The translations under genes were made by a program, and so were the position numbers. A stretch of DNA of 47,113 bases, taken from positions 1 through 47,113 of the forward strand of contig JAITEZ010000152.1 in assembly GCA_031281735.1 (NCBI GenBank), written 5' to 3'. This DNA is from Deltaproteobacteria bacterium (lineage in GTDB: Bacteria > Desulfobacterota > Desulfarculia > Adiutricales > Adiutricaceae). A model generated the notes under the pieces. The model was not told where the DNA came from. It did no database searches and worked only from the letters and a program-made list of their open reading frames with translations. Shown here in pieces: positions 9,829 through 44,637 of this stretch; position 1 is the stretch's first letter, and the number at the start of each line of letters is the position of its first letter.

Positions 9829-10573
9829 CCGCCAGCACGGCGAATCTGCCCCTGTCGCCGCGCCGGTGGCTGTAGAATTCCGGGGAGCAGCGCGTGCAGA
9901 CGCCGGAGAACTCCATGTTCCCGGCGGGTACGCCCGCCGCGCGGAGCTGGTCCCGCGTGAGGGCCCAGAAGTCGAAGCGGTCGGTGCCGGGCACCCGGTA
10001 GCCCCACAGGGCCTCCGGGAGCTCCTCGCGCCAGCCGCGGAACTCCATGCAGCAGGGCCCGATGGAGGGCGAGACGCAGGCGATCATCCGCGCGGGGTCG
10101 GCCCCGCGCCGGGCGGCGAGCGCCCGGACGGACTGGCCCGCGATGTCGAGGCGCGAGCCGCGCCAGCCGGAATGGACGAGCGCGAGGGCGGCGGTCTCGG
10201 GGGACCACAGCACTATGCCCTGGCAGTCTGCGAGCTTGATCATGAGGGCCTGGCCCGGGCCGCCGGCGAGAGCGTCGAAGCCCCTGCGGAGTTCCTCCGG
10301 GGCCCGCGGCGCGTAAGGCTCCCCGGGCTCCAGGAAGAGGATGCCGTCCCCGTGGGCCTGGTCGAGGAAAGCCGCCGGCGGGAGCCCGAGGGCCTCCTCG
10401 GCCATCCGGAGGTTGCGCATCGCCTCGGCGGTCCCGGCGTTCTCGAACGACAGGTTGAAGTCTGCCCCGTCCGGCCCGTAGCGCGTGAAGACGCCGCAGG
10501 CGAGTCGCGGTTCGTCCTCCAGGAGCCCGAAGGTCCAGTAGGGGGGACGGCCGGGGGCGGAGTGTCTCAGCAT
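9812..10573 (-). CDS. pgeF: PgeF/YfiH family multicopper-type purine nucleosidase-like protein
   Basis: This protein of about 253 residues belongs to the DUF152/YfiH (YlmD, LACC1-like) family. Members have been described as polyphenol oxidase, peptidoglycan editing factor and purine nucleoside-processing enzymes. The conserved metal-binding pattern is visible: FLDQAHGDG, KLADCQGIVLW, LVHSGWRGS and SPSIGPCCMEF, followed by GVCTRCSPEFYSHRRG near the C-terminus. The ATG at 10573 is preferred because an upstream in-frame start at 10615 would be TTG and adds only a Pro/Arg-rich leader; neither has a strong ribosome site. It is the first gene of a two-gene unit with pyrKD, behind a near-consensus promoter. 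The physiological substrate here is uncertain. Confidence 0.88.
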   Translation of the reverse strand: MLRHSAPGRPPYWTFGLLEDEPRLACGVFTRYGPDGADFNLSFENAGTAEAMRNLRMAEEALGLPPAAFLDQAHGDGILFLEPGEPYAPRAPEELRRGFDALAGGPGQALMIKLADCQGIVLWSPETAALALVHSGWRGSRLDIAGQSVRALAARRGADPARMIACVSPSIGPCCMEFRGWREELPEALWGYRVPGTDRFDFWALTRDQLRAAGVPAGNMEFSGVCTRCSPEFYSHRRGDRGRFAVLAGVRVA

Positions 10574-10697
10574 GGGGGGGTCGATCCGGATGTCCCGCCG
10601 CGGAGGCGGCGGCAAGGGGCTTCAGGGCAGGCCGGGAAGCTGGCAGTGGAGGGTGCCCGGCGGGCGGTCGGTCCGCCGGGAGCGGCCGCCTATCAGG

Positions 10698-15128: not shown

Positions 15129-16164
15129 AGGTAAGCTCCTGTCACAGGCGCGTTCCCGTTCATGCCGGAGGCTTTCCTGCATCGGCTCGGTCCGGCCGCG
15201 CAAGGCAGCGTCCGGGCGGGTTTTGGCTGGTCCGTGCGGTGTCCCGCCGCCTGTCGGGGGGCGGGAAGGCCGGATTCCGGTGCGGAATCGCCATCATTGT
15301 GTACCCGACCGTCCCGGAAATCCAGTTCCGCCGGCTGAAGCCCATGCCGTGGCCGGTCTCCGCCCGGCCTCCCCGGTTCCCGCGCACGGCTGCGGGGAGG
15401 GGGGGAGGCTGTCAGGGGTCGCACTGAATTATAGATTGCAATTCGGTTTGATTCTGCTAACATCTGACATCGTCTGGAGGATAAGCTTGCTTAAACATGG
15501 CTATTGGCAGCCTAACAACAGAAGGGGGGAAAGCGGCTTCATCTCAACTGGCGGCAGCGGCGGTTGCCGGCTTCCGGGAGCGCCGGGCATGGGGCATGTC
15601 TCTCGTGAGCGGCATACGCGGCCTTTCCAGGGACGCTGTCAGAAAGGGAGCCCATGGGCAGTCCGAGCCCTCCCTGAATGGGCAATCAGGAACGCTGGCC
15701 CGGGAAGGCCGACACCGGCGTTGATGGATGCTTCCATCATGGGGGAACAGCATAATCTCCTTGAAGGGGGATGGGTCAGTGGATGGTATCTTTACAGTAT
15801 TCTTAACTTGGAATGCAGAGGTACTCGGCAGAACTCGGTGGCATCTGCATATCCCGGAAGCCAAATCTCTCATATTGATGTGCCGTTCCTTCTGCAATCA
15901 TCAGGGTTTTCCCTCGCAGCCCGGCGGAAACCGCCAGAATTCTGGCGATGCCAGATTAGTGATGACCAGATTCAATATGAACATCTTCTTGTGGAAAGGG
16001 CACCACTAAAGGAGAGGCAGCCTGCCAACGATATAGTGCAAGGGATAGCAGTTCGTTAGGCCATTATATCAGCCGTGTAAGAATAAGATATGGAGCGAAG
16101 ATTATACTCATCACTGTATTGCATATCTTGAACTGTATGTTTGATATTTGTTTCTATAAAGTCA
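15129..16164. other. gene-free boundary of a lower-G+C island
   Basis: Composition changes abruptly at about 15420, from G+C-rich to balanced or A+T-leaning DNA, and stays low until about 18060. Short open frames (for example 15728-16009) match nothing I recognise and may be relics. This looks like the left edge of horizontally acquired DNA. No integrase, tRNA or flanking direct repeat was found. Confidence 0.5.
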
Positions 16165-17279
16165 ATGACCAGTGAGGGAGATTTTTCATTGCCGGCTGTA
16201 GTCGACTTGTTCTGCGGAGTTGGCGGATTGACTCACGGGCTGCGCCTTGCGGGGCTCAATGTAGTCGCCGGCATTGACTTGGATCAGTCCTGCCGATATG
16301 CTTACGAGCATAATAATCACGAGGCACGGTTTGTTCTGGCTGACGTTTCTGCGTTGCGTCCTGAGGAAGTAGCTGCCTTATATCCTGGTGATGCCTTGCG
16401 GATTTTGGTCGGTTGCGCACCTTGCCAGCCGTTCTAGAAATACACGAAACGTTACCGCAAGTGGGAATGCGAGTGCGGCCGTGATAATGATTAATGGCAA
16501 CGTGATAAAAAAAGGATATTGCTTGTTTCGTTTTCGGATATCGTTAGGCACGTATTTCCGGCAATTTTATCTATGGGGAACGTGCCTGAGCTAATCAGTG
16601 AGAATGTGTTTGCCGGTTTTTGCCTAGATTGTTTCAGCTTGATTATCATGTCAGCTTTGGTGTTGTACACTGCCCTGAATACGGAGTCCCACAGAATCGC
16701 CGCAGATTGGTGCTGTTGGCATCACGGCTCGTGGAGATACGGATGACAGCTCCGTCATATGGCGGAGATTCTTTCCCTACAGTCAGGGAAAGTATCGGCA
16801 TGTTGCCGCGTGCCGCCGCTGGAGAGTGTAATCAGGGAGATATCATGCACTCAGCCTCCAGGCTGTCAAATATGAACCTTCGCAGGATTAGCAGTTCCGT
16901 GCCAGGCGGGACATGGCGTGATTGGGATGACAGCCTCATGCTGAAGTGCCACACAAAGAGTAGCGGTAAGTCCTATATTCCCATATATGGACGGATGTGT
17001 TGGGACGCTCCGTCTCCGACGATAACGACACAGTTTTTCGGGTACGGTAGCGTGCGGTTTAGTCACCCTGAGCAGGGCAGTGCTCTGACACTGCGCGAGG
17101 GTGCACCGTTACATCCTCCAGATTATCAGTTTGTCGAACCTAACCGGGAGATCAACCGCAAGGAAGTCGGGGTTCATATCGGCAACGCCGTTCCTGTAGA
17201 GCTAGGGGTGGCGATAGGAGTGAGTATTATCGATCATGTTTTGGGCGTTAATCCCATTGACAGGAATTATGACCACTGA
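16165..17279 (+). pseudogene. broken C5 cytosine DNA methyltransferase
   Basis: The frame from ATG 16165 begins with methyltransferase motif I (VVDLFCGVGGLTHGL) and continues to the catalytic motif IV, CAPCQPF. It then meets TAG at 16435, where the family usually has Ser (a TCG to TAG change would explain it). A second stop (TAA, 16492) follows. The same frame resumes with VRHVFPAILSMGNVPEL (motif VI, ENV changed to GNV). A frameshift near 16610-16620 leads into HCPEYGVPQNRRRLVLLAS (motif VIII), GGTWRDW, APSPTITTQFFGYG and the final HIGNAVPVELG (motif X), ending at 17279. The order of motifs is complete, so an entire gene was inactivated by three lesions. Internal frames could not yield an active enzyme. 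It overlaps the DUF262 relic by 11 bp, which implies an ancestral operon. Confidence 0.9.
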
Positions 17280-20735: not shown

Positions 20736-20934
20736 CCCGCTGCCCTCCGGGCTCCCGGCCTGACTGCACCGCCGATGACGCCGAACCGCCGGGTTACCGG
20801 ACTGGCGGCGGGTCGCCCTCCGGGATCGCCCGTCGCGCTTTCCTGGCTCCCCGCGCCTTTCCGGCGTCCCCTCCCCGCCGTCCGCGGGGCCAGGCCCAGC
20901 GGGGGCCCGGGGAAGGGGGGGATCCCTGCCGCCC

Positions 20935-22359
20935 TCAGCCCGGCGGGCCGTCGCGGGACTCGGGCGCGCCGCCCCTGACGTTGTCCAGCCTGATGTCCAG
21001 CTCGTGCAGCTTCTTGTGGATGGTCGAGCGGTCGAGGTTGATGGCCTCCGCGGTCTTGGACACGTTGTTGTCGTGGGCCTCCAGCTGGAGCCTGAAGTAT
21101 ATCCTCTCGAACTCGGTCTTGGCCTCGCGGTACGGCAGCATGAGCCAGTCCAAGGCATCGGCCTCGGCGGGCTGCGGGTGGCCCGCCGCAGCAGGCGCGG
21201 CGCTCGGGGCCTCGGGATCGGAGCGGATGACCGGGCCCGGGGTGGTGATGGCGAGGCGCTCTATGGTGTTCTTGAGCTCGCGGATGTTGCCGGGCCAGTC
21301 GCGGGACCGGAGCTCCTCCACCAGCGCCGGATCCAGGATCTTGGGTTCCAGGCGGTTGGCCTCGATGCAGGCGGCGAGGAAGATCTGGGAGAGGCCGGGG
21401 ATGTCCTCGCGCCTCTCGCGCAGGGGGGGAACCACGAGCGGGACCACGTTAAGGCGGAAGTAGAGATCCTTGCGGAAGGCCCCCTGCTCCATCTCCACGC
21501 GCAGATCCTTGTTGCTAGCGGCTATGATGCGCACGTCAACGCTGACGGTCTTGGTGCCGCCCACCCGCTCGAACTTCTGCTCCTGGAGGATCCGCAGGAT
21601 CTTGGCCTGGGTCTTGAGCGACATGTCGCCGATCTCGTCCAGGAAGAGGGTCGAGTGGTTGGCGAGATCGAAGCGGCCCTGGCGGCGGCGGTCGGCCCCG
21701 GTGAAGGCCCCCTTCTCATGGCCGAAGAGCTCGGACTCCACCAGCTCCTCGGGGATGGCCGCGCAGTTGAGCTCGATCATGGGCCTGGACGCCCGGTCCG
21801 AGAGGGAGTGTATGGTCTGGGCCACGAGTTCCTTGCCCACCCCGTTCTCCCCGGTGATGAGCACCGAGGCGGGGGTGGGGGCCACCATCTCGATGGTGTT
21901 CAGGAGCGCCCGCATGGAGGCCGAGGCCCCCACGAAGAGCTTGTCCTCCCTGAAGTTCCTGCGGCGCAGGAGCTGGTTCTCCTCCGAAAGCCTCTGGAAG
22001 TCGAGGGCCCGCTGGACGGTCAGGAGCAGCTTTTCGGCGGAGAGCGGTTTCTCGATGAAGTCGAAGGCGCCGTTCTTCACGGCCTTGACCGCAGTCTCGA
22101 CGTTCCCGTGTCCGGAGATGACCACGACGGGCACCTGGGGACGGTTCTCCCTGACGCGCTCGAGCACGGAGAAGCCAGCCTCCGCGCCCCCCATCCAGAG
22201 ATCCAGTATCAGGAGGGAGGGGACGGACTCGTCGAGCCTCTCCAACGCCTCCTGGGCCGAGGAGGCCTGGGCGACGAGGTACCCCTCGTCGCCCAGGAGC
22301 CCCCCCAGGGTCAGCCGGATGTCCTTCTCGTCGTCTACCACCAGTATCGTATCGGCCAT
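20935..22359 (-). CDS. NtrX-like sigma-54-dependent response regulator
   Basis: This 474-residue three-domain regulator has a receiver domain (1-120) with acidic residues Asp9/Asp10, phospho-acceptor Asp53 (LLILDLWM) and Lys in FIEKPLS. The AAA+ domain has Walker A GENGVGKE, the sigma-54 contact loop GAFTGA, Walker B TLFLDEIGD and the arginine-finger region FRKDLYFRLNVVPL. A C-terminal Fis-type helix-turn-helix (NNVSKTAEAINLDRSTIHKKL) lies before a short disordered tail. The layout and the NVSKTAE..NLDRSTIHKKL end fit NtrX. No partner histidine kinase is adjacent. It sits between rimI (41-bp gap) and yihY. It probably activates sigma-54 promoters for nitrogen or envelope functions; targets cannot be read from here. 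Confidence 0.93.
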   Translation of the reverse strand: MADTILVVDDEKDIRLTLGGLLGDEGYLVAQASSAQEALERLDESVPSLLILDLWMGGAEAGFSVLERVRENRPQVPVVVISGHGNVETAVKAVKNGAFDFIEKPLSAEKLLLTVQRALDFQRLSEENQLLRRRNFREDKLFVGASASMRALLNTIEMVAPTPASVLITGENGVGKELVAQTIHSLSDRASRPMIELNCAAIPEELVESELFGHEKGAFTGADRRRQGRFDLANHSTLFLDEIGDMSLKTQAKILRILQEQKFERVGGTKTVSVDVRIIAASNKDLRVEMEQGAFRKDLYFRLNVVPLVVPPLRERREDIPGLSQIFLAACIEANRLEPKILDPALVEELRSRDWPGNIRELKNTIERLAITTPGPVIRSDPEAPSAAPAAAGHPQPAEADALDWLMLPYREAKTEFERIYFRLQLEAHDNNVSKTAEAINLDRSTIHKKLHELDIRLDNVRGGAPESRDGPPG

Positions 22360-22400
22360 TAGCCCGTCCCGCCTGCCCGCACCATCGCCGTCTCGGCCAC

Positions 22401-23150
22401 TTACCTGTCCCGCCTGCCCGGACGAGCGGGTCCAAGCTCAAGATTCATCAGGATGGCGTCTGTGCGCCCGCCCTGGTAATAGCCCCGTCTGCGCCCCGTG
22501 GCCCGGAAGCCTTCCGAGCGGTAGAGCGAGAGCGCGGCCAGGTTGTCCTCCTTGACCTCCAGCAGGATTGTCTCCGAGCCCTTGGCCCGGGAGATGGCCC
22601 TCACCGCCCTGAGCATCTCGCGGCCGAGGCCGCGCCCCCGGCGCTCCGGGGCCACGGCGAGGTTCAAGAGGTGCGTCTCCTCGTAGAGGAGCCAGAACAC
22701 TGCGTAGGCCGAGACCTGAGGCCGAGCGACCCCCGCCCGCCCGCGGAGGGACGCCGCCTGCGCCGCCAGGAGCCGCGAGAGCCGGATAGGGCGATCCGGC
22801 CCGGCCCGGGAGGCGCATGCGAGGATCTCGGCCAGCGCGAGGGCGGCCTCGCGAGCCGACGCGTCCCCGTGCCCCTCTTCCTGAGGGACGGGCGCCGCCC
22901 GGCCGGCCCGCGGCGAGAGCGGCCCCGCCTCCGGGGACGTCCTGCTGGCGGGGGGGGCGGAAGCCCCCGGAGGGCAGGCCGCCCTGTCCGTCCCGCCCTC
23001 GAAGAGGCCCAGGCCGACGGAGTAGGGCCGGTCCATCTCGTCGAGGAAGTTCTCGAGGGTCCAGGGTTCGTCCGGGAAGGAGGCCCTCTCGATGTCGAGC
23101 ACCCCCGGGAGATCCTCAGGGGCGAGGATCCTGAGCCTGCGTTCATTCAT
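22401..23150 (-). CDS. rimI: RimI-like GNAT acetyltransferase with internal insertion
   Basis: This protein of about 249 residues is homologous to ribosomal-protein-alanine N-acetyltransferase RimI, which acetylates an N-terminal Ala using acetyl-CoA. The N-terminal part matches (DIERASFPDEPWTLENFLDEM, 19-39). The core is ETHLLNLAVAPERRGRGLGREML with the acetyl-CoA loop RRGRGLG at 170-176, followed by EVKEDNLAALSLYRSEGF. Ordinary RimI is about 150 residues. The excess comes from residues about 54-145, an Ala/Pro/Arg/Gly-rich stretch placed between the second and third strands of the fold. No strong ribosome site precedes the ATG at 23150; longer in-frame starts exist but add shadow-like sequence. 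It lies between the PTS IIC gene and ntrX. Confidence 0.85.
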   Translation of the reverse strand: MNERRLRILAPEDLPGVLDIERASFPDEPWTLENFLDEMDRPYSVGLGLFEGGTDRAACPPGASAPPASRTSPEAGPLSPRAGRAAPVPQEEGHGDASAREAALALAEILACASRAGPDRPIRLSRLLAAQAASLRGRAGVARPQVSAYAVFWLLYEETHLLNLAVAPERRGRGLGREMLRAVRAISRAKGSETILLEVKEDNLAALSLYRSEGFRATGRRRGYYQGGRTDAILMNLELGPARPGRRDR

Positions 23151-23305
23151 GATATCAGAGCGCACAAGCGAAATGATAGAGGGAAGGCGGGCGGCCCGCC
23201 GCAGGGGAGTCATGCGCCCGGAGGCCTTCCGGGAGGGGAGGGCATCCGGGAGGCTGCGGGCAGGGGAGGCGGCGGGTAGGGGAGGCGGCGGGGGTGCCGG
23301 CCCTT

Positions 23306-24064
23306 TCACAGGAGTGGCCATATCCCGGCGGAGCGGAGAAGCGCGAGGGCCAGGAGCGCCGCCAGGGCTCCCAGGAGGTAGGGGGGAAGGCTAGGCCGGG
23401 AGAGCGAGGAGGCGATGCCGAGGAGCCCAGCCGCCGGGGCGTAGGGGGCGAACGCGGCGACGGGCTTCCAGAAATGGGAGGGGAGCAGCGCCGCTAGGAG
23501 GGCCGCGAGACCCATCACGCAGGGCACCGCCGCCGCCAGGAAGGCCACGGATGCCAGCAGGGTCTCGGGGATGCCCAGCAGGGCCTCCCTCCTGAAGGAA
23601 GCGGGCGCCGCCCTCCTGGCCTCCTCCACCCCCTCCGGCCCCCCTGCCTCAAGGGACAGGAGGCGTTCCCGGAGGCGGCGGGAACGCTCGCCCGCCCTCC
23701 GGCGAAGGAGGGAGTCCAGGTGGATGAGGAGGTGGGCCAGGATCGGGATCAGCGCGAAGCCCAGCACCAGCCTGGCCCGGGGATCGGCGGGGCCGGGGGC
23801 GCCCTCGGCGAGGAGGGCGATGAGGACGGCAGAGAGCGCGAGCGGGGTGTTGGGGGTGTAGTAGCCGCCAGAGTTGAGCCGCCAGAGCCACAGCAGTTCC
23901 GTCCAGAGCCCCAGGGTGAGGCCGGCCGCGGGCTCTGAGAGCGCCGCTCCCACCAGGGCCCCCGTGACCAGGGGCCTGCCCAGCATGGTCTGCATGAAGG
24001 CCCTGCGGTCTAGGCTCAGGAGGGCCGCGACCGCCAGGCCGGCGGCTAGGGAGGGGAGGGACAC
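23306..24064 (-). CDS. mannose-family PTS IIC component
   Basis: This integral membrane protein of about 252 residues is of the mannose/sorbose PTS IIC family (AgaC/ManY type). GTG at 24064 is the probable start, 7 bp after the IIB stop codon. Family features are LGRPLVTGALVGAALSEPAAGLTLGLWTELLWL in the N-terminal third and the TPNTPLALSAVLIALL segment. Multiple hydrophobic helices follow, up to the C-terminal ALLALALLRSAGIW. IIC normally forms the sugar channel with IID, but no IID gene follows: the next gene is rimI. The protein is therefore probably part of a partial PTS whose role may be regulatory, as inferred for similar deltaproteobacterial clusters. Confidence 0.83.
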   Translation of the reverse strand: MSLPSLAAGLAVAALLSLDRRAFMQTMLGRPLVTGALVGAALSEPAAGLTLGLWTELLWLWRLNSGGYYTPNTPLALSAVLIALLAEGAPGPADPRARLVLGFALIPILAHLLIHLDSLLRRRAGERSRRLRERLLSLEAGGPEGVEEARRAAPASFRREALLGIPETLLASVAFLAAAVPCVMGLAALLAALLPSHFWKPVAAFAPYAPAAGLLGIASSLSRPSLPPYLLGALAALLALALLRSAGIWPLL

Positions 24065-24071
24065 GGGAGGC

Positions 24072-24590
24072 CTACCGGCGGCGGTTCGGCAACCGGGCGG
24101 CCCCGGCCGGGATGTAGGTCTGCCGCAGATCGTCAGGGGGCCCGAAATAGACCAGGGGGATCCTACGGCAGAGCCCGTCCAGCGTCCTCCTGTCCTCGGG
24201 GCTGACCTTGAAGTTATGGTAGAGCTCGACCAGCTCATGGGACTTGGAGACGAAGCAGCCGAGGTTGAGAGCCGCGATGGCGACCCCGCCATCCAGCGCC
24301 TGGAGCACCCCCGCCATGTCCCCGAAAAGGAGCAGGAACCGCATCCCGCCGTTGTCCTTCTCGCGCAGGTACTCCGGGAGGCTCGCGGGAACCACGAAGG
24401 TGGCCCCATGCCTGACTGGCTTGTTGGCAGCCAAGAGGGCAACGTTGAAAGACAGCTGGCGCAGGGAGTCCCTGCAGAGCGCCTCGTCGGCCATGATGAC
24501 CGCGTTCACCCCGCGGTTGGCCAGCGCGTCGCTGGCGATGAGCTGGCCGTGGATGAACCTCTGGTCCAGGCGAACGAGCTCTATGGGCAT
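24072..24590 (-). CDS. mannose-family PTS IIB component
   Basis: This cytosolic protein of about 172 residues is of the mannose/sorbose IIB family. The phosphorylated histidine is His14 in RLDQRFIHGQ, the classic family signature. The rest follows the fold, with NAVIMADEALC, MRFLLLFGDM and a C-terminal VSPEDRRTLDGLCRRIPLVYF. A GGAGGG ribosome site is about 10 nt before the ATG at 24590. It accepts phosphate from IIA and is co-transcribed with IIC. A 320-bp gap separates it from IIA, longer than usual in such operons. Confidence 0.9.
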   Translation of the reverse strand: MPIELVRLDQRFIHGQLIASDALANRGVNAVIMADEALCRDSLRQLSFNVALLAANKPVRHGATFVVPASLPEYLREKDNGGMRFLLLFGDMAGVLQALDGGVAIAALNLGCFVSKSHELVELYHNFKVSPEDRRTLDGLCRRIPLVYFGPPDDLRQTYIPAGAARLPNRRR

Positions 24591-24910
24591 TTCAGGCGCC
24601 CTCCACAGGCCTCCGCCGGTGGCGGCGGGCGGGGGAAGGGTGCGGGCAGTGGCCGGGGATCCAGGGGCTGGGCGGGCAGGGCCCGGCACGGGAGCGGCGG
24701 CGGGCGCCTGGCCGGAGGGGGGGGCGGCCGGGGGCGGTCGGGCAGCGGGAAAGGCGGCGGAGAGGGAGGTAGCGGCGCGGGGGAGGCGGGGCGTCCCGCT
24801 CGCGCCGCCAGCGGCACAGGGGGGCGGTCCTGCGGCGGTCCCGGATCACGGGGGTGCCCCGCTTTCGGCGGGAGACGGCGCCGGCTGGGATCCGGGGGGC
24901 GCCCGCCATG
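24591..24910. other. 320-bp gap between PTS IIA and IIB
   Basis: No gene is visible. The strand is strongly G-skewed with many GGCGGG repeats. Frames through it are Pro/Arg-rich shadow. It could fold into stable RNA structures within the PTS transcript, but no clear terminator was seen. Confidence 0.5.
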
Positions 24911-25396
24911 TCAGTTGCTGGAGACATTCTTCTTGGTCTTGCCGGCGTTGGTCTTGTTGGCGGCGGCTTCGAGGTTGAAATTCCTGAAGTTGAGGACGTC
25001 CATCGAGCAGATGCGGATGCCCTCGGAGGCGTACTTGGCGCAATCGAAGGCTAGCTGGGCGACGGTGGGCTCGGGCTGCTGCTTCCGGCGCTGGAAGGCG
25101 CGCAGGATCATGGCTAGGTTGACACCGGAGAGCACCTCCACCTCCCCCTTCTTCAGGTAAGGGAGGCTCACGTTGCAGGCCGTGCCGCCGAAGAGGTCGG
25201 TCAGGATCAGCACTGGGTTGCCCCCGGACGAGGCCTCCTTGACGGCCTTGTCGATCAGCTCCAGGTAGGTGTCCGGATGCTTCCCGTCGCTGATGGAGAC
25301 CGGCCAGCACTTCTCGCTGCGGTGGGACAGGCGTTCGGCGACTTCCAGGAGCTTGTACGCCAGATCCTCGTGGCAAACCACTACGACTTCGATCAT
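24911..25396 (-). CDS. mannose-family PTS IIA component
   Basis: This 161-residue protein is of the ManX/EIIA-Man domain family. The phosphorylated histidine is His9 in VVVVCHEDLA, where most relatives have HG and this one has HE. The second signature TDLFGGTACN is at about 66-75, and the SGVNLAMIL segment is conserved. The last 25 or so residues are an Asn/Lys-rich tail (ANKTNAGKTKKNVSSN), unlike the compact family end. AAGGTGA precedes the ATG. In such clusters IIA receives phosphate from HPr and may report phosphorylation state; neither HPr nor EI is encoded in the window. Confidence 0.9.
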   Translation of the reverse strand: MIEVVVVCHEDLAYKLLEVAERLSHRSEKCWPVSISDGKHPDTYLELIDKAVKEASSGGNPVLILTDLFGGTACNVSLPYLKKGEVEVLSGVNLAMILRAFQRRKQQPEPTVAQLAFDCAKYASEGIRICSMDVLNFRNFNLEAAANKTNAGKTKKNVSSN

Positions 25397-25713
25397 CAGG
25401 TCACCTTCGTCGGGGGGGGCGGGGAACCGGCATGGATACGGGCACGCCAGAGTGCGGATCCGGAAAGGTACCAGCCTCCGGCCGGGCTTTCAAGGCCCAG
25501 GCGCGGGAGGGCGCGGCGGGGACGGCCGGGGTGTCCTGGCGGGGGCAGTGTCAGAGTGGTTCCGCCGCGTGCCGGAACTGCTCCGGGCGGCCCGGGGCAG
25601 GGCCGCGGCGGCCGGGATCGGCCGGAACCGGCAGGCGGGGCCCGGCCGGCCTGCGGACGTCGCCACCGGAGCCGGTGCCCGGGGGCGGCCGGCGGGGATC
25701 CCGGGATCCCGCC
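25397..25713. other. gap between rapZ and PTS IIA
   Basis: This is 317 bp of G+C-rich DNA with no supported gene, promoter or terminator. Confidence 0.45.
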
Positions 25714-26592
25714 TCAGGAGATGTCCCTATGTCTCAGGACCAGGGGGCCTTGGAAATGACTGGAGAGGTTCTCCCAGATGTACACGGCCAGGGCCACCGA
25801 GCGGTGTTGCCCTCCGGTGCAACCCACTGCGATGGTGAGGTATGACTTGCCCTCCCTCTGGTAGAGGGGCAGGAGGAACTGGAGGATGTCAAGAAGCTTC
25901 TCAAGGAACTCCTGGGTCTCTGGGAAGGAGAGGACGTAGTCGCGGACATCGGCATCGCGGCCGTCCAGGGTCCTGAGCTTGTCGATATAGAACGGGTTCG
26001 GGAGGAACCGCACGTCGAACATGAGATCCGCCTCGGGGGGGAGCCCGTTCTTGAAGCCGAACGAGAGCACCTCGACCGAGAGGTGACGGTGACCCTCGGC
26101 GTTCACGAAGCGCCGCACCACGACGTCCCGCAGTTTCGGCGCCTTGAGGGCGGACGTGTCGAGCACGAGATCCGCCTCCGACTTCAAGGGGTCGAGTTCC
26201 AGTCGCTCCATCGCTATGGCCGAGCTGAGGCTGCCTGCGGCGGCCGAGAGGGGGTGGGAGCGTCTCGTCTCAGAGAAGCGCTTCACCAGTACCTCGTCGT
26301 CGGCCTCGAGGAAGAGCAGGTTCAGTTCGTAGCCCATCTCACGGGCTTCCTCGAAGGCCTTCCCGTGCTCGGCCACGAGATCCGGATCCCGGCCGTCCAT
26401 GCCCACCGCGAGCCGGATGAAGTCCCCGCGGGACTCCTTGCGTATGGCGAGGAGCTTGGGGAGCAGGAGCACGGGGAGGTTGTCGATGGCCAGGAAGCCG
26501 TTGTCTTCCAGGATCTTGAGCGCGGACGACTTGCCCGAGCCCGAGAGGCCGGTCACTATGATGATGAGCCCTGCTTTGGTGGGGTCGTTCAT
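25714..26592 (-). CDS. rapZ: RapZ/YvcJ family nucleotide- and RNA-binding protein
   Basis: This protein of about 292 residues is of the RapZ family. The N-terminal P-loop is GLSGSGKSSAL (Walker A) after IIIVT, with a second nucleotide-site motif at GMDGRDPD. The C-terminal domain, which in E. coli RapZ binds the small RNAs GlmY/GlmZ and senses glucosamine-6-phosphate, is present in full. It includes LSFGFKNGLPPEADLMFDVRFLPNPFY and the terminal IAVGCTGGQHRSV. The gene lies between hpf and the PTS genes, an arrangement common in proteobacterial rpoN clusters. Function as an amino-sugar regulator in this lineage is not established. The ATG at 26592 starts just before the P-loop; the longer upstream frame is low-complexity. 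Confidence 0.94.
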   Translation of the reverse strand: MNDPTKAGLIIIVTGLSGSGKSSALKILEDNGFLAIDNLPVLLLPKLLAIRKESRGDFIRLAVGMDGRDPDLVAEHGKAFEEAREMGYELNLLFLEADDEVLVKRFSETRRSHPLSAAAGSLSSAIAMERLELDPLKSEADLVLDTSALKAPKLRDVVVRRFVNAEGHRHLSVEVLSFGFKNGLPPEADLMFDVRFLPNPFYIDKLRTLDGRDADVRDYVLSFPETQEFLEKLLDILQFLLPLYQREGKSYLTIAVGCTGGQHRSVALAVYIWENLSSHFQGPLVLRHRDIS

Positions 26593-26894
26593 GAAGGCCT
26601 CGGGCCACGGGTCCGCCGGGGGGCCCCGCGTGCTGAAGGGCCCCGAGAGGGCCCAGATGGCTGTGCCGGCCCCGCCGGGGCCCCGAGTCCTTGCGGCCCC
26701 GGCGGGGCCTTGCCGTAATGGCGCCCCTCGGCACGAGGGGTGCCCCCGAGGATCCAGGCATCCTCGCCCCCTGAAGGACGGGGCCTGCCGAGAGTTCAGG
26801 TCAGCGGTCTGTCGCCCGCATGATTGACGCCTGTCAGCGTCCCGGCAGGGGTTCCCGGCGGACCGGGCGACCCGGCCCGCCGGGTGGCCGGGTG
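26593..26894 (-). other. structured leader between hpf and rapZ
   Basis: The 302-bp gap contains three consecutive strong dyads: GGCCCCGCCGGGGCC at 26668-26682, GGCCCCGGCGGGGCC at 26695-26709, and an 11-bp stem with a 3-base loop at 720-730/734-744 (offset 26000). The first two could also pair with each other. No T-run follows, so attenuation, RNA processing or RapZ autoregulation are possibilities. No gene is present. Confidence 0.45.
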
Positions 26895-27476
26895 TCAGTC
26901 GGCCTGGCGGTGGAAGCGCACGAGCTCCAGGGAGCCGCCTCCAGAATGGCGGAGGAGCCTCACCCCCCCGTCGCCCTCGTCCAGGTAGACGAGAAAGGGG
27001 AGGGGCGAGAGGGAGAGCCTCTGGGAGGCCTCCTCGGGCGTCATGCGGACCAGGGGCAAGTCGAGGGTGCGGGCGGCCTGGGCCCCGGAATCCGCTTCCG
27101 ACTCGTCGTGGCCGTTGCCGCCGGGGGAGGGTGAGGCCTCCCACTCCGCGTCCTCCTCCTGAGTGAACTCGCGCAGGCCCACCGAGGGCTTGTGTTCCTT
27201 GAGCCTCTCTCGGTGGCGCTTGATCTGCCTCTCGAGCTTGTCGACCACGAGGTCGACGGAGGAGAACATGTCCTCGGACTCTTGTTCCGCCTTGATCTTG
27301 AGGCCGTCGGAGGTGAGCACCACCGCGGTGCGGTGGCGGAACTTCTCCAAGGTGAAGGTGATCTCGGCGTCAAGTACGGAGTCGAGGTACTTCTCAAGCT
27401 TTGAGATCTTGTCGATACCGTAGTCCTTCAGCTGCTGGTTGGGGTCCATGTGACGGAAAGTCACAGTATGCTGCAT
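26895..27476 (-). CDS. hpf: long-form ribosome hibernation promoting factor
   Basis: This protein of about 193 residues is of the long HPF (YvyD/RaiA) type, which binds the 30S decoding region and dimerises 70S ribosomes into 100S particles. The N-terminal domain (1-100) starts MQHTVTFRHMDPNQQLKDY and has the basic helix KLERQIKRHRERLKEHK. A Ser/Gly/Glu-rich linker (about 110-145) leads to the C-terminal dimerisation domain, LVRMTPEEASQRLSL..LPFLVYLDEGDGGVRLL. GGAGGT lies 6 nt before the ATG. In many proteobacteria rpoN directly precedes this gene; here the upstream DNA is gene-free for nearly 2 kb. Confidence 0.95.
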   Translation of the reverse strand: MQHTVTFRHMDPNQQLKDYGIDKISKLEKYLDSVLDAEITFTLEKFRHRTAVVLTSDGLKIKAEQESEDMFSSVDLVVDKLERQIKRHRERLKEHKPSVGLREFTQEEDAEWEASPSPGGNGHDESEADSGAQAARTLDLPLVRMTPEEASQRLSLSPLPFLVYLDEGDGGVRLLRHSGGGSLELVRFHRQAD

Positions 27477-28177
27477 AGATACCTCCAGGGCAGTGGTTGA
27501 TGCCTGGACAGGCGGGCGCTCCGGGCCCGCGTCTGGGGCGACCGTCCCTCCCGTGTGGCACCGGGGACCTCCGGGCCTCGAAGCCGGGAGTTGCAGGCGT
27601 CCTCGGGACACTCGGCGGGGGGGGTGCGGGATAGGGCGTGATAACCAGGGGAACGGGGAGGGTCTGCCTGGGGGCAGGGGCCGTCCGGGATCCGTGGGCC
27701 GTCACTGCGATCCGCTGGGCGACCATCCTGAAGCCGGTGGGGTCTGCGGGTCGGGGAACCTGGGGACGGTATGTGAAGGGGTTACCGGCTCACCGGGATC
27801 CCCCATTGTGATCCCGCCTGGCGGGGTGCCCGGCAGCCCTCTCGCCTGCTTGGATCCCGTTGTCTTGCTGTGTCCGGAGGAAATGAGTCAGTTACGTCCC
27901 GCTCCAGTATGCTGAGGTGTGAGAGGGCCGGAGAGCGTTCGATCAGTTGTGCTTTCGTCTTCTTAACATGCAGTTATGATAGCAGAAGGTTCCTTGGAAA
28001 GAAAGGAGCGGTCGGCTCGGCCCCGGTTGGGTGTTCCGGGTGCCCCGAACAAAGGGGTGGGAAGGGGGAAGCCTGTGTGAAGAGGCCCGGAGAGAGGTAA
28101 CAGTATAAATGTTTGGTTGTTATTGAGAATGAGTGCCGTTCCAGGATCCTGTAAAGAGGATTTTGAAATAGGGAAGG
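27477..28177. other. gene-free upstream region of hpf
   Basis: No gene is supported. G+C content falls gradually from 27850 towards the A+T-rich tract. On the minus strand TATCAT (about 27975-27980) with TTTCTT 17 bases upstream is a weak candidate promoter for hpf, about 500 nt from its start. No rpoN remnant was recognised. Confidence 0.4.
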
Positions 28178-28276
28178 AATAAATAAAAAAGTATAATTAT
28201 TAATTTATTATTATATATTATTACAAAAATATAATAAATAATATAAAAAAATATTTATAAAATAAAATAAATAGAG
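28178..28276. other. A+T-rich tract
   Basis: Roughly 100 bp consist almost entirely of A and T, with many overlapping TTATTA/AATAAT words, in an otherwise very G+C-rich chromosome. It directly precedes the 28-bp repeat array. It could be a DNA-unwinding, nucoid-protein-binding or transferred segment. No gene and no DnaA-box cluster were seen. Confidence 0.6.
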
Positions 28277-28383
28277 ATATAGTTTTTGATGCTGAAAAGA
28301 CATGGTGCTGATGAGGACTAAGAGAGAAATGGAAGTAGATAATAAAAAAAAGAGTGTGTTTTTTATGATGAGCATGAGATACA

Positions 28384-28748
28384 GGGATCCATATGATCAT
28401 CAGGAGAGGAAGGGATCCGTATGACCATCATGAGATACAGGGATCCTTATGATCATCATGAGAGAAAGGGATCCGTATTATCATCAGGAAAGAATTATGG
28501 ATACGTATGATTATCTTGTGAGAAAGGGAGCCGTGTGGTGATCAGGAGAGACGGGGATCCCGATGGAGAGCAAGAGGGAAAGGTATCCAGTATAGATGAT
28601 GATCAGGAAGAAGGGATCCTGATGACGATCAGGAGAGAATCAAGAATATGCTGAAGAACATGAGAGAAAGGGATCCTGATGATGATCAGAAGAAAGGGAT
28701 CTTGATGATGCCCGAGGGGAAGGGATCGAGATGATGCTCCAGAAAATG
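28384..28748 (+). repeat. 28-bp imperfect tandem repeat array
   Basis: About 13 degenerate copies are arranged head to tail. Each begins with a GGGATCC-like core, followed by a TATGATCATC-like segment and a purine-rich AGGAGAGAAA-like end. Cores lie at 28384, 28412, 28440, 28468, 28498, 28526, 28554, 28582, 28613, about 28644, 28670, 28696 and 28722, giving a period of 28 with a few 26-31 deviations. The period is not a multiple of three and stops interrupt all frames, so it is not coding. There are no unique spacers, so it is not CRISPR. Most units contain two GATC sites. Confidence 0.85.
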
Positions 28749-29233
28749 TTCTTTGCCGGTTCAGAGGAGGTGTCCCGTGGAGTCATCTAAAAAGCTTATC
28801 ACTAAGTCGATACGATAATTGAGATGGGCCCGACTGGGTGTCGGCAAAGGGGAATCTTGAGTTGTCTCAGTGGGGAGTGGGAATAAACTCTGACCCGGAA
28901 GGGTGTCTTTCCTTCTTGATTCGGGGAGAATTCGATGGAACTGCGGCACGGGCATGCGATATGGGGATGCCTAGCGTCTTACTAAACCTGTGGGCGGGTG
29001 TAACCTCCGTCCGGCTAGGCAGAAGTCATCGTTTATCTGGTTGTTTGCCAGGAACGGAAGATGAGAGGGAAGGATTGTGGATAGTGAACGGCAGAGATGA
29101 AGCGAAGGAGCGGGAGTTGAGCATGACTGATGTCCTCCCTCTTCCCCTGCTAGGAAATACATAAAAAAACTATTGATTTCAGTGAGTTAAAACGGAAAGA
29201 CCATGCTGAGGCTTCTCGCGAAACGAGGGGCGC
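28749..29233. other. gene-free left flank of the insertion sequence
   Basis: The composition is intermediate and purine-rich on the plus strand. A 108-codon frame (28838-29164) matches nothing I know and is probably spurious. The same composition continues to the right of the IS (31095-31600), so the element interrupted a pre-existing non-coding or decayed region. Confidence 0.45.
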
Positions 29234-29239
29234 CTGTAA
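29234..29239 (+). repeat. left 6-bp target-site duplication CTGTAA
   Basis: CTGTAA directly abuts the left inverted repeat of the insertion sequence. The identical hexamer directly follows the right inverted repeat at 31089-31094. Confidence 0.85.
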
Positions 29240-29270
29240 CCTAAAATCCCGGAATTTCATAGAACTACAG
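29240..29270 (+). repeat. IS left terminal inverted repeat
   Basis: It begins CCTAAAATCCCGGA and ends AGAACTACAG. It is the reverse complement of 31059-31088 apart from a few central mismatches and one extra base. Confidence 0.9.
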
Positions 29271-29334
29271 GGGAGGAAAAATCACTATATTTCTAACCAG
29301 CTGATTTCATTAAATATTTTTTATTAGTATAGTC

Positions 29335-29363
29335 TTGACTTCCTTGTTATGTAGTGCTACAGT
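29335..29363 (+). promoter_or_regulatory. transposase promoter and ribosome site
   Basis: TTGACT (29335-29340) and TACAGT (29358-29363) are 17 bases apart. AAGGAGG follows at 29374-29380, 7 nt before the transposase ATG. Confidence 0.6.
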
Positions 29364-29387
29364 ATATAACTACAAGGAGGTCATCTG

Positions 29388-31064
29388 ATGGCATTTCTTT
29401 TCCTTAGCCCCATACGTGGAATTCCATATATCTATGGAGCTGTCTCCTATAGACGTGAAGACAATGGTATGCCGACAAGAAAATCAGTTTGCTTGGGTAA
29501 GATAGATCTTAAGACTAGGTTACCTATTTTTAATGATAAATATTTACCATGGTTAAAAGATCATAATTTAACTACCGAAGAGGCTTTTAAAGATTATATT
29601 AGTAAAACTAATAATAAATATAATATAAATTTAGATTATTTAAATAAAAAAGAAAATTTAGAAATTAATGAGAAAAACTTTAGCATTGATGAATTAAGAA
29701 AATCTCCTTCTAAATGTTTTGGGACATTATATTTATTTAATTATATTATTAAAAAAATATGTTTATATATAATATTGTATTCTATATTTCCTGATTTGTA
29801 TGAGCAGATAATTACATTAGTATATTTTTATATTATTGAAGCAGATCCTGCTATGTATTGTAGATTTTTTGCCTTAAAATATGATACATATATTGATGCT
29901 GATAAAGTAAGTTCTCAAAGAATCAGTGAATTGCTCTCAAAAATTTCTTACTATCAAAAGATAGAATTTTATGAAAGATGGGGAAATTTAATTAAAGAAA
30001 AAGAGTATTTAGCGTTAGATAGCACCTCAATTTCTACATATTCTAATAATATGCCAGAAGCAAAATTTGGCCATAATAAACAAGGGGATAATTTAAAACA
30101 AGTAAATTTATGCTTATTGTTCGGCGAAGAATCAGGACTACCAGTTTTTTCAACTACTTATGACGGCAGTTTAAATGATGTACGAACATTAATTAATGTT
30201 TTAAAAAGATCTTCATTAATTCAAAATTTAAACTATAAATTAGTTTTAGATAGAGGATATTATAGTAAAAAAAATTTATTATTTATGATTGAATCTAAAT
30301 TTAAGCATAAATTTATTATCTCTATACCTGCCACTACAAATTTAAAATATGAATTGATTGATAAAAATATTAATATTATAGATAATATAAATTATTATAT
30401 TAACTATAATGATGAACTTTTATATGGAACTACTCAGAGAATAAAATGGGAAAATCATTATTTATATGCTCATATTTTTAATGATTATAATAAAATACAT
30501 AACTATAGACCACAAATAATAAACGATATAAATTCCCTGTATTCTTTAGCTCTTGAAGATCCAGAAAGTTTTTTAAAACTAGAAGAATATAAAAATTATA
30601 TAATTATTAAAAAAAATAATAAATATAATATTTATAAAGTATTAAAAAATCAAGATGCATATTCAAAAGCTCTTTTACGTGAGGGATGGTTTGTTTTTTT
30701 AAGTAATAGTATAAAAGATACTCAAGATGCATTAAAAATTTATAGAAAAAGAGATGTAATTGAAAAAGCATTTGATATATGTAAAAATCATACAGAACAA
30801 GCTAGATTACGTGTTCATAATTCTCTTAAAATGGAAAATAAAATTTTTATAGGATTTCTATCTCTTATAATAACATCACAAATTCACAAAGTTATGTTTG
30901 AAAAATTTTTGTATAGAAAATATACTATGAAAGAATTATTTGCTGAACTAGATTTAATACAGGTAACAAGAATTAAAAAATACTCAATTTTAACACCTTT
31001 ATCAAAAAACCAAATCAATATTTATTCTGCTTTTGATTGTCCTTTACCACAAGAGGATCTGTAG
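29388..31064 (+). CDS. IS1634-family DDE transposase
   Basis: This 558-residue intact transposase is of the IS4-superfamily, IS1634-like type. Catalytic residues are visible. The first Asp is in YLALDSTSIS and the second Asp in LVLDRGYYSKKN. The YREK signature Y-x2-R-x3-E-x6-K appears as YRKRDVIEKAFDICK, carrying the catalytic Glu. The family's N-terminal start (PYIYGAVSYRRE...RKSVCLGKID) and the KQGDNLKQVNLCLLFGEESGLPVF block are also present. Codon use is extremely A+T-biased (AAA, TTA, ATA, AAT), unlike every chromosomal gene here. Trp is TGG and no internal TGA occurs, so the standard code applies. It should be translated despite the foreign codon bias, given its own promoter and strong ribosome site. 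Confidence 0.95.
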   Translation: MAFLFLSPIRGIPYIYGAVSYRREDNGMPTRKSVCLGKIDLKTRLPIFNDKYLPWLKDHNLTTEEAFKDYISKTNNKYNINLDYLNKKENLEINEKNFSIDELRKSPSKCFGTLYLFNYIIKKICLYIILYSIFPDLYEQIITLVYFYIIEADPAMYCRFFALKYDTYIDADKVSSQRISELLSKISYYQKIEFYERWGNLIKEKEYLALDSTSISTYSNNMPEAKFGHNKQGDNLKQVNLCLLFGEESGLPVFSTTYDGSLNDVRTLINVLKRSSLIQNLNYKLVLDRGYYSKKNLLFMIESKFKHKFIISIPATTNLKYELIDKNINIIDNINYYINYNDELLYGTTQRIKWENHYLYAHIFNDYNKIHNYRPQIINDINSLYSLALEDPESFLKLEEYKNYIIIKKNNKYNIYKVLKNQDAYSKALLREGWFVFLSNSIKDTQDALKIYRKRDVIEKAFDICKNHTEQARLRVHNSLKMENKIFIGFLSLIITSQIHKVMFEKFLYRKYTMKELFAELDLIQVTRIKKYSILTPLSKNQINIYSAFDCPLPQEDL

Positions 31065-31088
31065 TTCTACACAATCCGGGATTTTAGG
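31059..31088 (-). repeat. IS right terminal inverted repeat
   Basis: It starts CTGTAGTTCT and ends CCGGGATTTTAGG. It overlaps the last codons and the stop of the transposase gene, as is common in compact IS elements. Confidence 0.9.
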
Positions 31089-31094
31089 CTGTAA
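31089..31094 (+). repeat. right 6-bp target-site duplication CTGTAA
   Basis: The hexamer is identical to 29234-29239 and directly follows the right inverted repeat. Removing the IS and one copy gives the uninterrupted target CGCCTGTAAGGAG. Confidence 0.85.
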
Positions 31095-31603
31095 GGAGTG
31101 AAAGAAAGAGGGACGGAACAGGGGCAACCGGGAGGAAGGGTAAAGCGCCGATTGTGCTGGAGGCAGGCGAAAGGCTAGGCGTCAGGACGCCGGGGGAGAG
31201 AGCGAGTCACATCTGGAGCAAAGGGAGATGCCGCCTCTGGGATGCAGCCTGGGTTCAACTGTTGAGAGTGACGGGATTGGGAATGCCAGATCGGAGGGCA
31301 TTGAGGGAGTTGAGCGGGGCTTGCGTTCCAGCTAGCCGCCATAACACGTTAAGGACAAGAAAAAGACTATTTATTACAGCCGGTTAATTGCCCCGGCAGT
31401 AACGGGGCCGACATTTTTTCCGCGTAAGCGAAAGGAAGACGGCCTGCAGGGCGGGCGTGATAGGAACGGCGGGCGCCACAGGCCTGGCGGGGGCCGGGAG
31501 AGACTCGGGGACGGGGCCAGGCTTGCGGGAAAGGCATGCCATGCAAGGCGGCGGCGGATCGGGGTCGGATGAAACCCAAGCGGTTACGTAGGAAGGGCGA
31601 TGA
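31095..31603. other. gene-free right flank of the IS
   Basis: The DNA is of intermediate composition up to about 31380, then G+C-rich. No gene or recognisable RNA was found. It ends at the promoter of the DUF1178 gene. Confidence 0.45.
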
Positions 31604-31633
31604 TTGACAGCCTGGACAACAGTGAATTAATAT
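31604..31633 (+). promoter_or_regulatory. sigma-70 promoter of DUF1178-GGDEF unit
   Basis: A perfect TTGACA (31604-31609) and TAATAT (31628-31633) are separated by 18 bases, about 60 nt before the first gene of the pair. Confidence 0.7.
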
Positions 31634-31702
31634 GATGACGGTACCCGGGCGACCGGCGGACGCGCCGCGCGCTCCGCGATGGATCCGTTTCAGGTGGCCC
31701 GC

Positions 31703-32140
31703 ATGGTAATCTTCGACCTGATATGTCGATACGAGCACCGCTTCGAGGGGTGGTTCAATGATCTCGCCGATCTCGAAAGCCAGATCGGACGGGGGGATCT
31801 TTCCTGCCCTGTTTGCGGCGACACCCACATCCAGCGTCGCCCCTCCACTTTCGGACTGGTGAGGACACGCCAGCCCGGCGCGCCGGCGGCGGATCCAATC
31901 GAGGCGAAGAAGGCGGAGCTTTTCCATCAGCTGGAGACGATTTCCGACCGCCTCCAGGAGGATTTCGCGGACGTGGGCACCGGCTTTTCCGGGGAGGCCC
32001 TGAAGATGCACTACGGGGCCGTGCCTCGCCGGAACATCAGGGGCATCTCCACCCGGGACGAGGAGGAACTCCTTCGCAAGGAGGGGGTAGAGTTCTTCAA
32101 GGCGCCCATGCTGGTCCGCAAACGCCCCACCCCCGCTTGA
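31703..32140 (+). CDS. DUF1178 family protein
   Basis: This small protein of about 145 residues matches DUF1178. The N-terminal MVIFDLICRYEHRFEGWFNDLADLESQI is close to the family's YDL.C..GH.FEGWF opening. It is followed by a CPVCG pair that usually forms part of a metal or zinc-ribbon site together with the earlier Cys/His. The C-terminal half is charged, with a helical region (AELFHQLETISDRLQEDFADVG) and a conserved-looking HYG..PRRNIRGI segment. The ATG at 31703 is preferred over 31679, with AGGTGG just upstream. The next gene starts 83 bp later on the same strand. The family has no established function. Confidence 0.85.
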   Translation: MVIFDLICRYEHRFEGWFNDLADLESQIGRGDLSCPVCGDTHIQRRPSTFGLVRTRQPGAPAADPIEAKKAELFHQLETISDRLQEDFADVGTGFSGEALKMHYGAVPRRNIRGISTRDEEELLRKEGVEFFKAPMLVRKRPTPA

Positions 32141-39807: not shown

Positions 39808-42756
<2,949 letters not shown>

Positions 42757-43032
42757 TGATTCGGAACCCCCGGATAGTGTCAGTGGGTTGGTCATGGCGC
42801 GGAAGCCGAGCGTGGCTCCGCCGCCCACGCCGGAGCGCCTCGCGGCCCCTCCCTTCCTGCTCCCGCCGCCCCGCCCGCTCCCCGGCGGGGGACGGCGCTT
42901 GTGGCGCGCTTCGGGGTCGGTGCCGGATGGTTCACGGCGTCGGTGCTGTCCGCCTTCTCATTTCAAGGTTCGCTCCCTCACTGGTGAAAACACATCGTCT
43001 GCGTGTGACCATGTTTGTTTCGGTTTTGCATT

Positions 43033-43570: not shown

Positions 43571-44500
43571 ATGGCGCGGGAAGGCGCGGGTTCTGTTGCC
43601 GAGGGTTGGGAGGCCTTGCGCGATCTCTACCTGGGGCACTTGCGGGTGGAGCGGGGCCTCTCGCCGCACACCATAAGCGGGTACGCCAGGGATCTCGCCG
43701 ATCTCGCGGCCTTCTTCGCGGGGAAGGGCATAGACGCCCCGGCGCGGGCGGGGCGCGGCGAGATACAGGGTTTCGTCCTCCACCTGGCAGCCGAGAGGGG
43801 CCTTTCGGCGCGGAGCAGGGCCCGCAAGCTCTCGGCGGTAAAGGGATTTTTCGCCTTCCTGGAGAACGAGGGTCTCGCGGAACGGGACTGCGCCGCCGGG
43901 GTGGAAGGCCCCAGGCTCCCCCGCCCTCTGCCCAAGGCTCTCACCCGGCGGGAGGCGGAGCTGCTCGTGACCTCGCCGGATCTCTCGCGGCCGGGAGGGC
44001 TCAGGGACCGCGCCATGTTCGAGCTACTGTACGCGGGCGGGCTCAGGGTCTCCGAGCTGGCGGGGCTCACCCTGGGTCAGCTCAATCTCCCCGAATCATT
44101 CCTGCGGGTGCGGGGCAAGGGCTCCAAGGATCGTCTGGTCCCCGTGGGGGACGAGGCCGCCCGCTGGCTCGCCCGCTACATGGCCGAGGAGAGGCCCAGG
44201 CTCGACAGGACCGGGAAGGCCTCATGCCTGTTCCTCAACGCCCGCGGGGGCCCTTTGAGCCGCCAGTACCTCTGGCGCCTCGTCTCGCGGCACTCGGCAC
44301 TCGCCGGCATCCGCCACGCGAGCCCGCACGTCATCCGCCACTCGTTCGCCACGCACCTGGTGGAGGGGGGGGCAGACTTGCGGTCGGTCCAGGCCATGCT
44401 GGGCCACGCTGGGCTGGGCACCACCGAGGTCTATCTCAGGGCCGCCGACTCCCGGCTCAAGAGCGTCCATTCCAGGCGCCACCCGCGGTCGGGGCGCTGA
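43571..44500 (+). CDS. XerC/XerD-type tyrosine recombinase
   Basis: This 309-residue recombinase has the size and layout of chromosome-dimer resolution enzymes. The N-terminal SAM-like core-binding domain (about 12-105) has LRVERGLSPHTISGYARDL. The catalytic domain carries Arg159 (GGLRVSEL), Lys183 (GKGSKDR), His253 and Arg256 (HVIRHSF), His279 (LGHAGLGTT) and the nucleophile Tyr288. All active-site residues are present. AGGAGG precedes the ATG. It is not next to phage or integron genes and lies just upstream of a housekeeping RNA enzyme, so a XerC/D housekeeping role is favoured over a mobile-element integrase. XerC and XerD cannot be told apart from sequence alone here. Confidence 0.9.
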   Translation: MAREGAGSVAEGWEALRDLYLGHLRVERGLSPHTISGYARDLADLAAFFAGKGIDAPARAGRGEIQGFVLHLAAERGLSARSRARKLSAVKGFFAFLENEGLAERDCAAGVEGPRLPRPLPKALTRREAELLVTSPDLSRPGGLRDRAMFELLYAGGLRVSELAGLTLGQLNLPESFLRVRGKGSKDRLVPVGDEAARWLARYMAEERPRLDRTGKASCLFLNARGGPLSRQYLWRLVSRHSALAGIRHASPHVIRHSFATHLVEGGADLRSVQAMLGHAGLGTTEVYLRAADSRLKSVHSRRHPRSGR

Positions 44501-44637
44501 GCGCCTGGGCGGCGGCCGTCCCCGAAGCCCGCCGCCGCACCCCGTGCCGGAAAGGAGGGCCCCTTGACACTGCGCAGGAACGGGTCCGCCGGACCGCGAG
44601 GGCCGCGCCGCGGCGGCCCGGAAACCCCAGGAATGCC

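Follow-up and report, generated by a model that had tools for sequence, protein, structure and literature searches.

A degenerate 28-bp tandem array in the HPF-DUF1178 spacer of an Adiutricaceae genome is probably a species-private minisatellite

Between two divergent genes of a bacterium of the family Adiutricaceae lies a non-coding tandem array with a 28-bp period, which we interpret, with a probability of roughly 0.85, as a minisatellite private to its species, grown from a purine-rich stretch by slippage or unequal recombination and then decayed. The array occupies a single locus, has no counterpart in the relatives compared, is built of degenerate units, carries an exact duplicate at a 56-bp spacing, and resembles many other arrays found in its genus. 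In the course of events that we propose, about 28 bp of purine-rich DNA in the center of a long spacer, where constraint is absent, would have been duplicated head to tail, through replication slippage or unequal recombination and partly by two-unit steps, and the units would later have decayed through point changes and small indels. Slippage is thus a likely rather than an observed cause, and the array probably has no selected function.

Structure of the array

We analyzed a stretch of 47,113 bp (the window), contig C251 of a draft assembly whose 418 contigs sum to 3.96 Mb. The genome is 86% complete and has about 70% GC. Tandem Repeats Finder (TRF) reported a 28-bp-period array at positions 28365-28710 (12.2 copies, 69% matches, 8% indels, score 203), and splitting by eye gave 14 degenerate units at 28364-28748 on the plus strand, with the consensus GATGATGATCAGGAGAGAAAGGGATCCT and lengths of 19 to 33 bp, exactly 28 bp in 7 of the 14. 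The TRF score of the region, 222, is far above chance, the maximum among 200 Markov-1 copies being 70. An earlier sequence-only reading had described about 13 units of 28 bp at 28384-28748; the units are real and number about 14, and the end of that span was right, while its start was about 20 bp late because the units split by eye begin at 28364. Eroded units to the left of 28364 were also suspected by eye, and a profile scan of the plus strand over 20899-28364 gave nothing above the 95% level.

The units are contiguous head-to-tail copies without intervening spacers, unlike the identical repeats parted by unique spacers of a CRISPR, and each of the six reading frames holds 4 to 9 stops, the longest open stretch being 47 codons; the array is thus neither CRISPR nor coding, as had been proposed. 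It shows the features by which we recognize a minisatellite: a unit of about 10 to 100 bp, head-to-tail copies above chance, non-coding sequence, and a single locus. The longest exact duplicate within it is 18 bp, with copies 56 bp apart, a spacing that fits a two-unit step in array growth. Since this duplicate is so short, ordinary short-read assembly should be able to resolve the array. Similarity between units showed a borderline fall with distance along the array (r = -0.23, permutation P = 0.056), which lends weak support to local homogenization of units. Single-strand folding was not unusual on either strand (z = -1.66 and 0.08), and an Rfam scan of the window returned no family at its gathering score. 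Our literature searches found no report on tandem repeats in Adiutricaceae, and for 28-bp GATC intergenic tandem repeats they matched only work on plant holocentromeres.

Locus and neighboring insertion sequence

As judged from open reading frames, Pfam matches, and conserved gene order, the spacer that contains the array spans about 4.1 kb (27612-31678). On its left is the gene for a hibernation promoting factor (HPF) type protein (Ribosomal_S30AE in Pfam; 26895-27611, minus strand), with RapZ and PTS genes after it; on its right stands, divergently, the gene for a DUF1178 protein (Pfam; 31679-32140, plus strand). The A+T-rich tract that had been noted beside the array is real: an A+T island, with 60-bp windows of at most 12% GC, lies just left of it at 28161-28295. 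Before DUF1178 is a promoter-like site, TTGACA-18-TAATAT (31604-31633, plus strand), and similar sites were seen by eye in relatives. Scanning 27500-31800, we found 19 promoter-like sites against 11.0 (SD 3.5) in shuffled copies, most of them within an A+T-rich transposase gene, and 3 terminator-like sites against 3.4 in shuffles. Elsewhere in the window, at 16141-17279, a C-5 cytosine methylase looks broken or interrupted, with two separate open reading frames in a lower-GC stretch matching profile positions 3-74 and 131-323.

About 1.85 kb of the spacer is an insertion sequence of 1,849 bp (29240-31088, plus strand), which has 14-bp perfect inverted repeats (29240-29253 and 31075-31088), is flanked by a 6-bp target duplication, CTGTAA (29234-29239 and 31089-31094), and encodes a transposase of the Pfam family DDE_Tnp_1 (29388-31064, plus strand). 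The kilobase 30001-31000, within the transposase, has 22% GC, compared with about 70% genome-wide, and the nearest other match to this transposase in the genome is 38% identical. One might suppose that the array is a piece or passenger of this low-GC element or of another mobile element, as the insertion sequence starts only 492 bp past the last base of the array and both are GC-poorer than the genome. We hold this to be highly improbable: the element is complete at both ends and its target duplication is intact, which leaves the array outside it, and the array occurs at one genomic place only. The insertion sequence and the array are separate events.

Comparison with relatives

The divergent HPF and DUF1178 genes were kept in 10 of the 11 relatives compared; in the eleventh, L071, just 1,176 bases of contig precede DUF1178, and HPF was not found there. 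By DUF1178, the relatives that carry names are metagenome-assembled genomes (MAGs) labeled "Deltaproteobacteria bacterium" (Roe453, Gx485, and others) or, in one case, Candidatus Adiutrix sp. Termite guts are the source of the Adiutricaceae MAGs and of the Candidatus Adiutrix described in passages of PMC9137090, and the named relatives are presumably termite-gut MAGs as well.

While the gene pair persists, the HPF-DUF1178 spacers of the relatives (525 to 1,949 bp) are almost wholly different from each other, and the array unit is absent from all 10. With a minimum TRF score of 40, several of them hold repeats of their own that are unrelated to it, among them repeats of 34 bp in L070, 14 bp in L073, and 11 bp in L076. 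Apart from A+T-rich matches, what the window has in common with these spacers is mainly a block of 77 bp near HPF (27940-28016, minus strand), which aligns with the genus mate L073 (73%, E = 3e-5) and weakly with L072 (E = 0.17). When spacer DNA was searched against 60 genomes including its own, 8 of the 59 relatives matched, all to the A+T-rich tract. A 26-bp reverse-strand resemblance between the array start and the L070 spacer (85%, E = 0.014) was judged to be chance in pyrimidine-rich DNA.

In its own genome, the array was the sole match to itself, and the exact unit pattern occurred at five places, all inside the array, which is a single locus there. At no more than one mismatch, the pattern was present in 15 of 40 genomes including its own, as scattered single matches only outside the array; in genomes with several such matches, these lay on separate contigs. 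Of the candidates put forward by the sequence-only reading, the minisatellite is the one supported by these data, namely a single genomic locus, absence from the spacers of relatives, and the many private arrays of the genus described below.

Replication and binding-site readings

The same reading had also listed an iteron-like array and a partition or replication element, and direct repeats adjoining an A+T island do recall iterons, a partition site, or an origin with its unwinding element, for example in an integrated plasmid. None of the 26 window proteins scanned with Pfam (a set that leaves out ORFs including 9812-10615, 43606-47113, the PTS ORF 23306-24442, and the short 23720-23938 and 27192-27404) belongs to a Rep, ParA/ParB, or DnaA family, the window contains no DnaA box by the patterns TTATNCACA and TTWTNCACA, and the array sits amid chromosomal housekeeping genes. 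The dnaA gene of this genome is on another contig, and in the family member G028 two DnaA_C matches lie at 347 kb and 2.29 Mb, with DUF1178 at 669 kb. Cumulative GC skew makes no turn at the array, over 47 kb that are too short to judge by. Similar A+T islands, moreover, occur elsewhere in the genome without such arrays. We therefore find a role in replication or partition scarcely credible.

Iteron units are shorter than the 28-bp unit of the array. Compared with plasmid iterons, as passages of PMC4980987 and PMC4081077 present them, the array has in common its direct repeats beside an A+T-rich region, and differs in that no Rep gene was found, the surroundings are chromosomal and housekeeping in kind, the repeats are not conserved, and the unit is more degenerate.

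Counting as sharp those A+T islands that have 60-bp windows of at most 12% GC and whose flanks both exceed 60% GC, we found 8 in 503 kb of the own genome (G000) and 2 in 269 kb of G003. The same flank rule gave none in the samples of G001 (289 kb) and G028 (400 kb). Those we list are L110 3311-3525, L126 7091-7215, L136 1206-1365, L143 1116-1200, L144 186-370 and 14706-14815, L145 11746-11865, and L146 7296-7390.

We also considered whether the array is a cluster of candidate sites, with cores TGAT-S-ATCA and GGATCC, through which a dimeric DNA-binding protein would control either HPF/RapZ or DUF1178 from a distance. The GGATCC-like and TGATCA-like cores reported earlier are there, with 7 exact GGATCC and 5 exact TGATCA in 28384-28748; "like" was the correct word, because exact palindromes are absent from some units. 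The GGATCC and TGATGATCA windows are each the best kept of their length in the unit (rank 1 of 28, for windows chosen after the motifs had been seen), mean column identity being 0.88 for GGATCC, 0.84 for TGATGATCA, and 0.75 for the rest of the unit. Better-kept palindromic cores are the pattern that a binding site would show and are mild evidence against a neutral minisatellite. Binding sites would also suit the position of the array between two divergent genes and the tendency of left-half units toward TGATCATCA and of right-half units toward TGATGATCA, the two being reverse complements of each other.

Several observations nevertheless make such a site cluster unlikely. The unit is missing from the spacers of 10 of 10 relatives, where conserved sites would be looked for, and no other array of it exists in the genome. 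With 10.5 bp per turn of the DNA helix, a 28-bp period does not amount to an integral number of turns. Column unevenness in the array, at 1.97 times the binomial value, is ordinary for the genus, where 13 of 37 other array rows are more uneven (overlapping periods count as separate rows, and 4 near-perfect rows of 41 are left out). Finally, the array includes neither the upstream block that is conserved nor the promoter-like site. We give even less credence to a broader version, in which the purine-rich array with its palindromes would combine with the A+T island into a nucleoprotein platform that acts as a silencer, or as a boundary, between the divergent operons. Such a platform would belong to a class of composite elements in the spacers of this lineage whose sequence changes fast while base composition and palindromes are kept.

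Tandem arrays in the genus

The minisatellite interpretation draws further support from a survey of sampled DNA for tandem arrays outside called genes (TRF score at least 100, period at least 7). Three species of the genus together had 97 such arrays, of which 14 were in G000 (503 kb sampled), 34 in G003 (269 kb), and 49 in G001 (289 kb); the family member G028 had 3 in 400 kb. Per 100 kb, the load was 2.8 in G000, 17.0 in G001, and 12.6 in G003, versus 0.8 in G028, in sampled contigs that are non-random, some having been picked for earlier matches. The gene caller, based on codon-position GC, is crude and misses low-GC genes, so "outside called genes" is approximate. Periods divisible by three made up 47 of 49 arrays inside called genes (15/15 in G000, 12/14 in G003, and 20/20 in G001) and 35 of 97 outside them (5/14, 14/34, and 16/49, respectively). 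The periods outside genes are thus near the third expected of non-coding DNA and those inside are mostly multiples of three, which provides a check on the sorting into gene and non-gene. From these counts and the period pattern, we take the array to be one private minisatellite among the many in the genus. Control loci contained no arrays in 125 kb of Alphaproteobacteria (10 loci, 3 further ones being left out) or in 45 kb of other Desulfobacterota (4 loci), a weak control because all of them surround one conserved gene.

Two further repeats were seen along the way. A strongly purine-rich run (up to 77%) at L135 4541-5180 holds 25-bp and 51-bp arrays and is like the window array in kind, not in sequence. 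Within the window, a PPDK-like ORF (39808-42828, minus strand) carries at its C-terminal end a 30-bp repeat (39829-40018; 5.5 copies, 95% match).

MIRU loci are an interspersed family. The array shares with bacterial intergenic minisatellites and variable-number tandem repeats, such as the Mycobacterium tuberculosis MIRU loci treated in passages of PMC3635867, a non-coding head-to-tail repeat of tens of bases between genes; in contrast to them, it is degenerate, single-locus, and private, with a copy number known from one assembly. A single array of this sort matters little in itself. It points to a genus of Desulfobacterota, with relatives among termite-gut MAGs, whose spacers are rich in private minisatellites, which are of use in strain typing and which raise the question of why repeat load differs between close relatives.

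GATC content

The richness in GATC that had drawn attention to the array is real as a count and uninformative as a signal. With 15 GATC in 28384-28748, the array outnumbers every other 365-bp stretch of the own-genome sample, where the next count is 10. The unit itself carries one or two GATC and its repetition accounts for the total, so the sites are not independent. Arrays with at least 0.8 GATC per copy numbered 9 of 97, the window array included (2/14 in G000, 2/34 in G003, and 5/49 in G001); by chance, 13 to 19% of units of median length would hold a GATC, and there is no excess. One unrelated 18-bp array, L232 in G001, holds 10 GATC and could be an uncalled gene, since its period is a multiple of three. 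MethyltransfD12 genes are present in G000, and Dam-type methylation of GATC is therefore possible in this genome.
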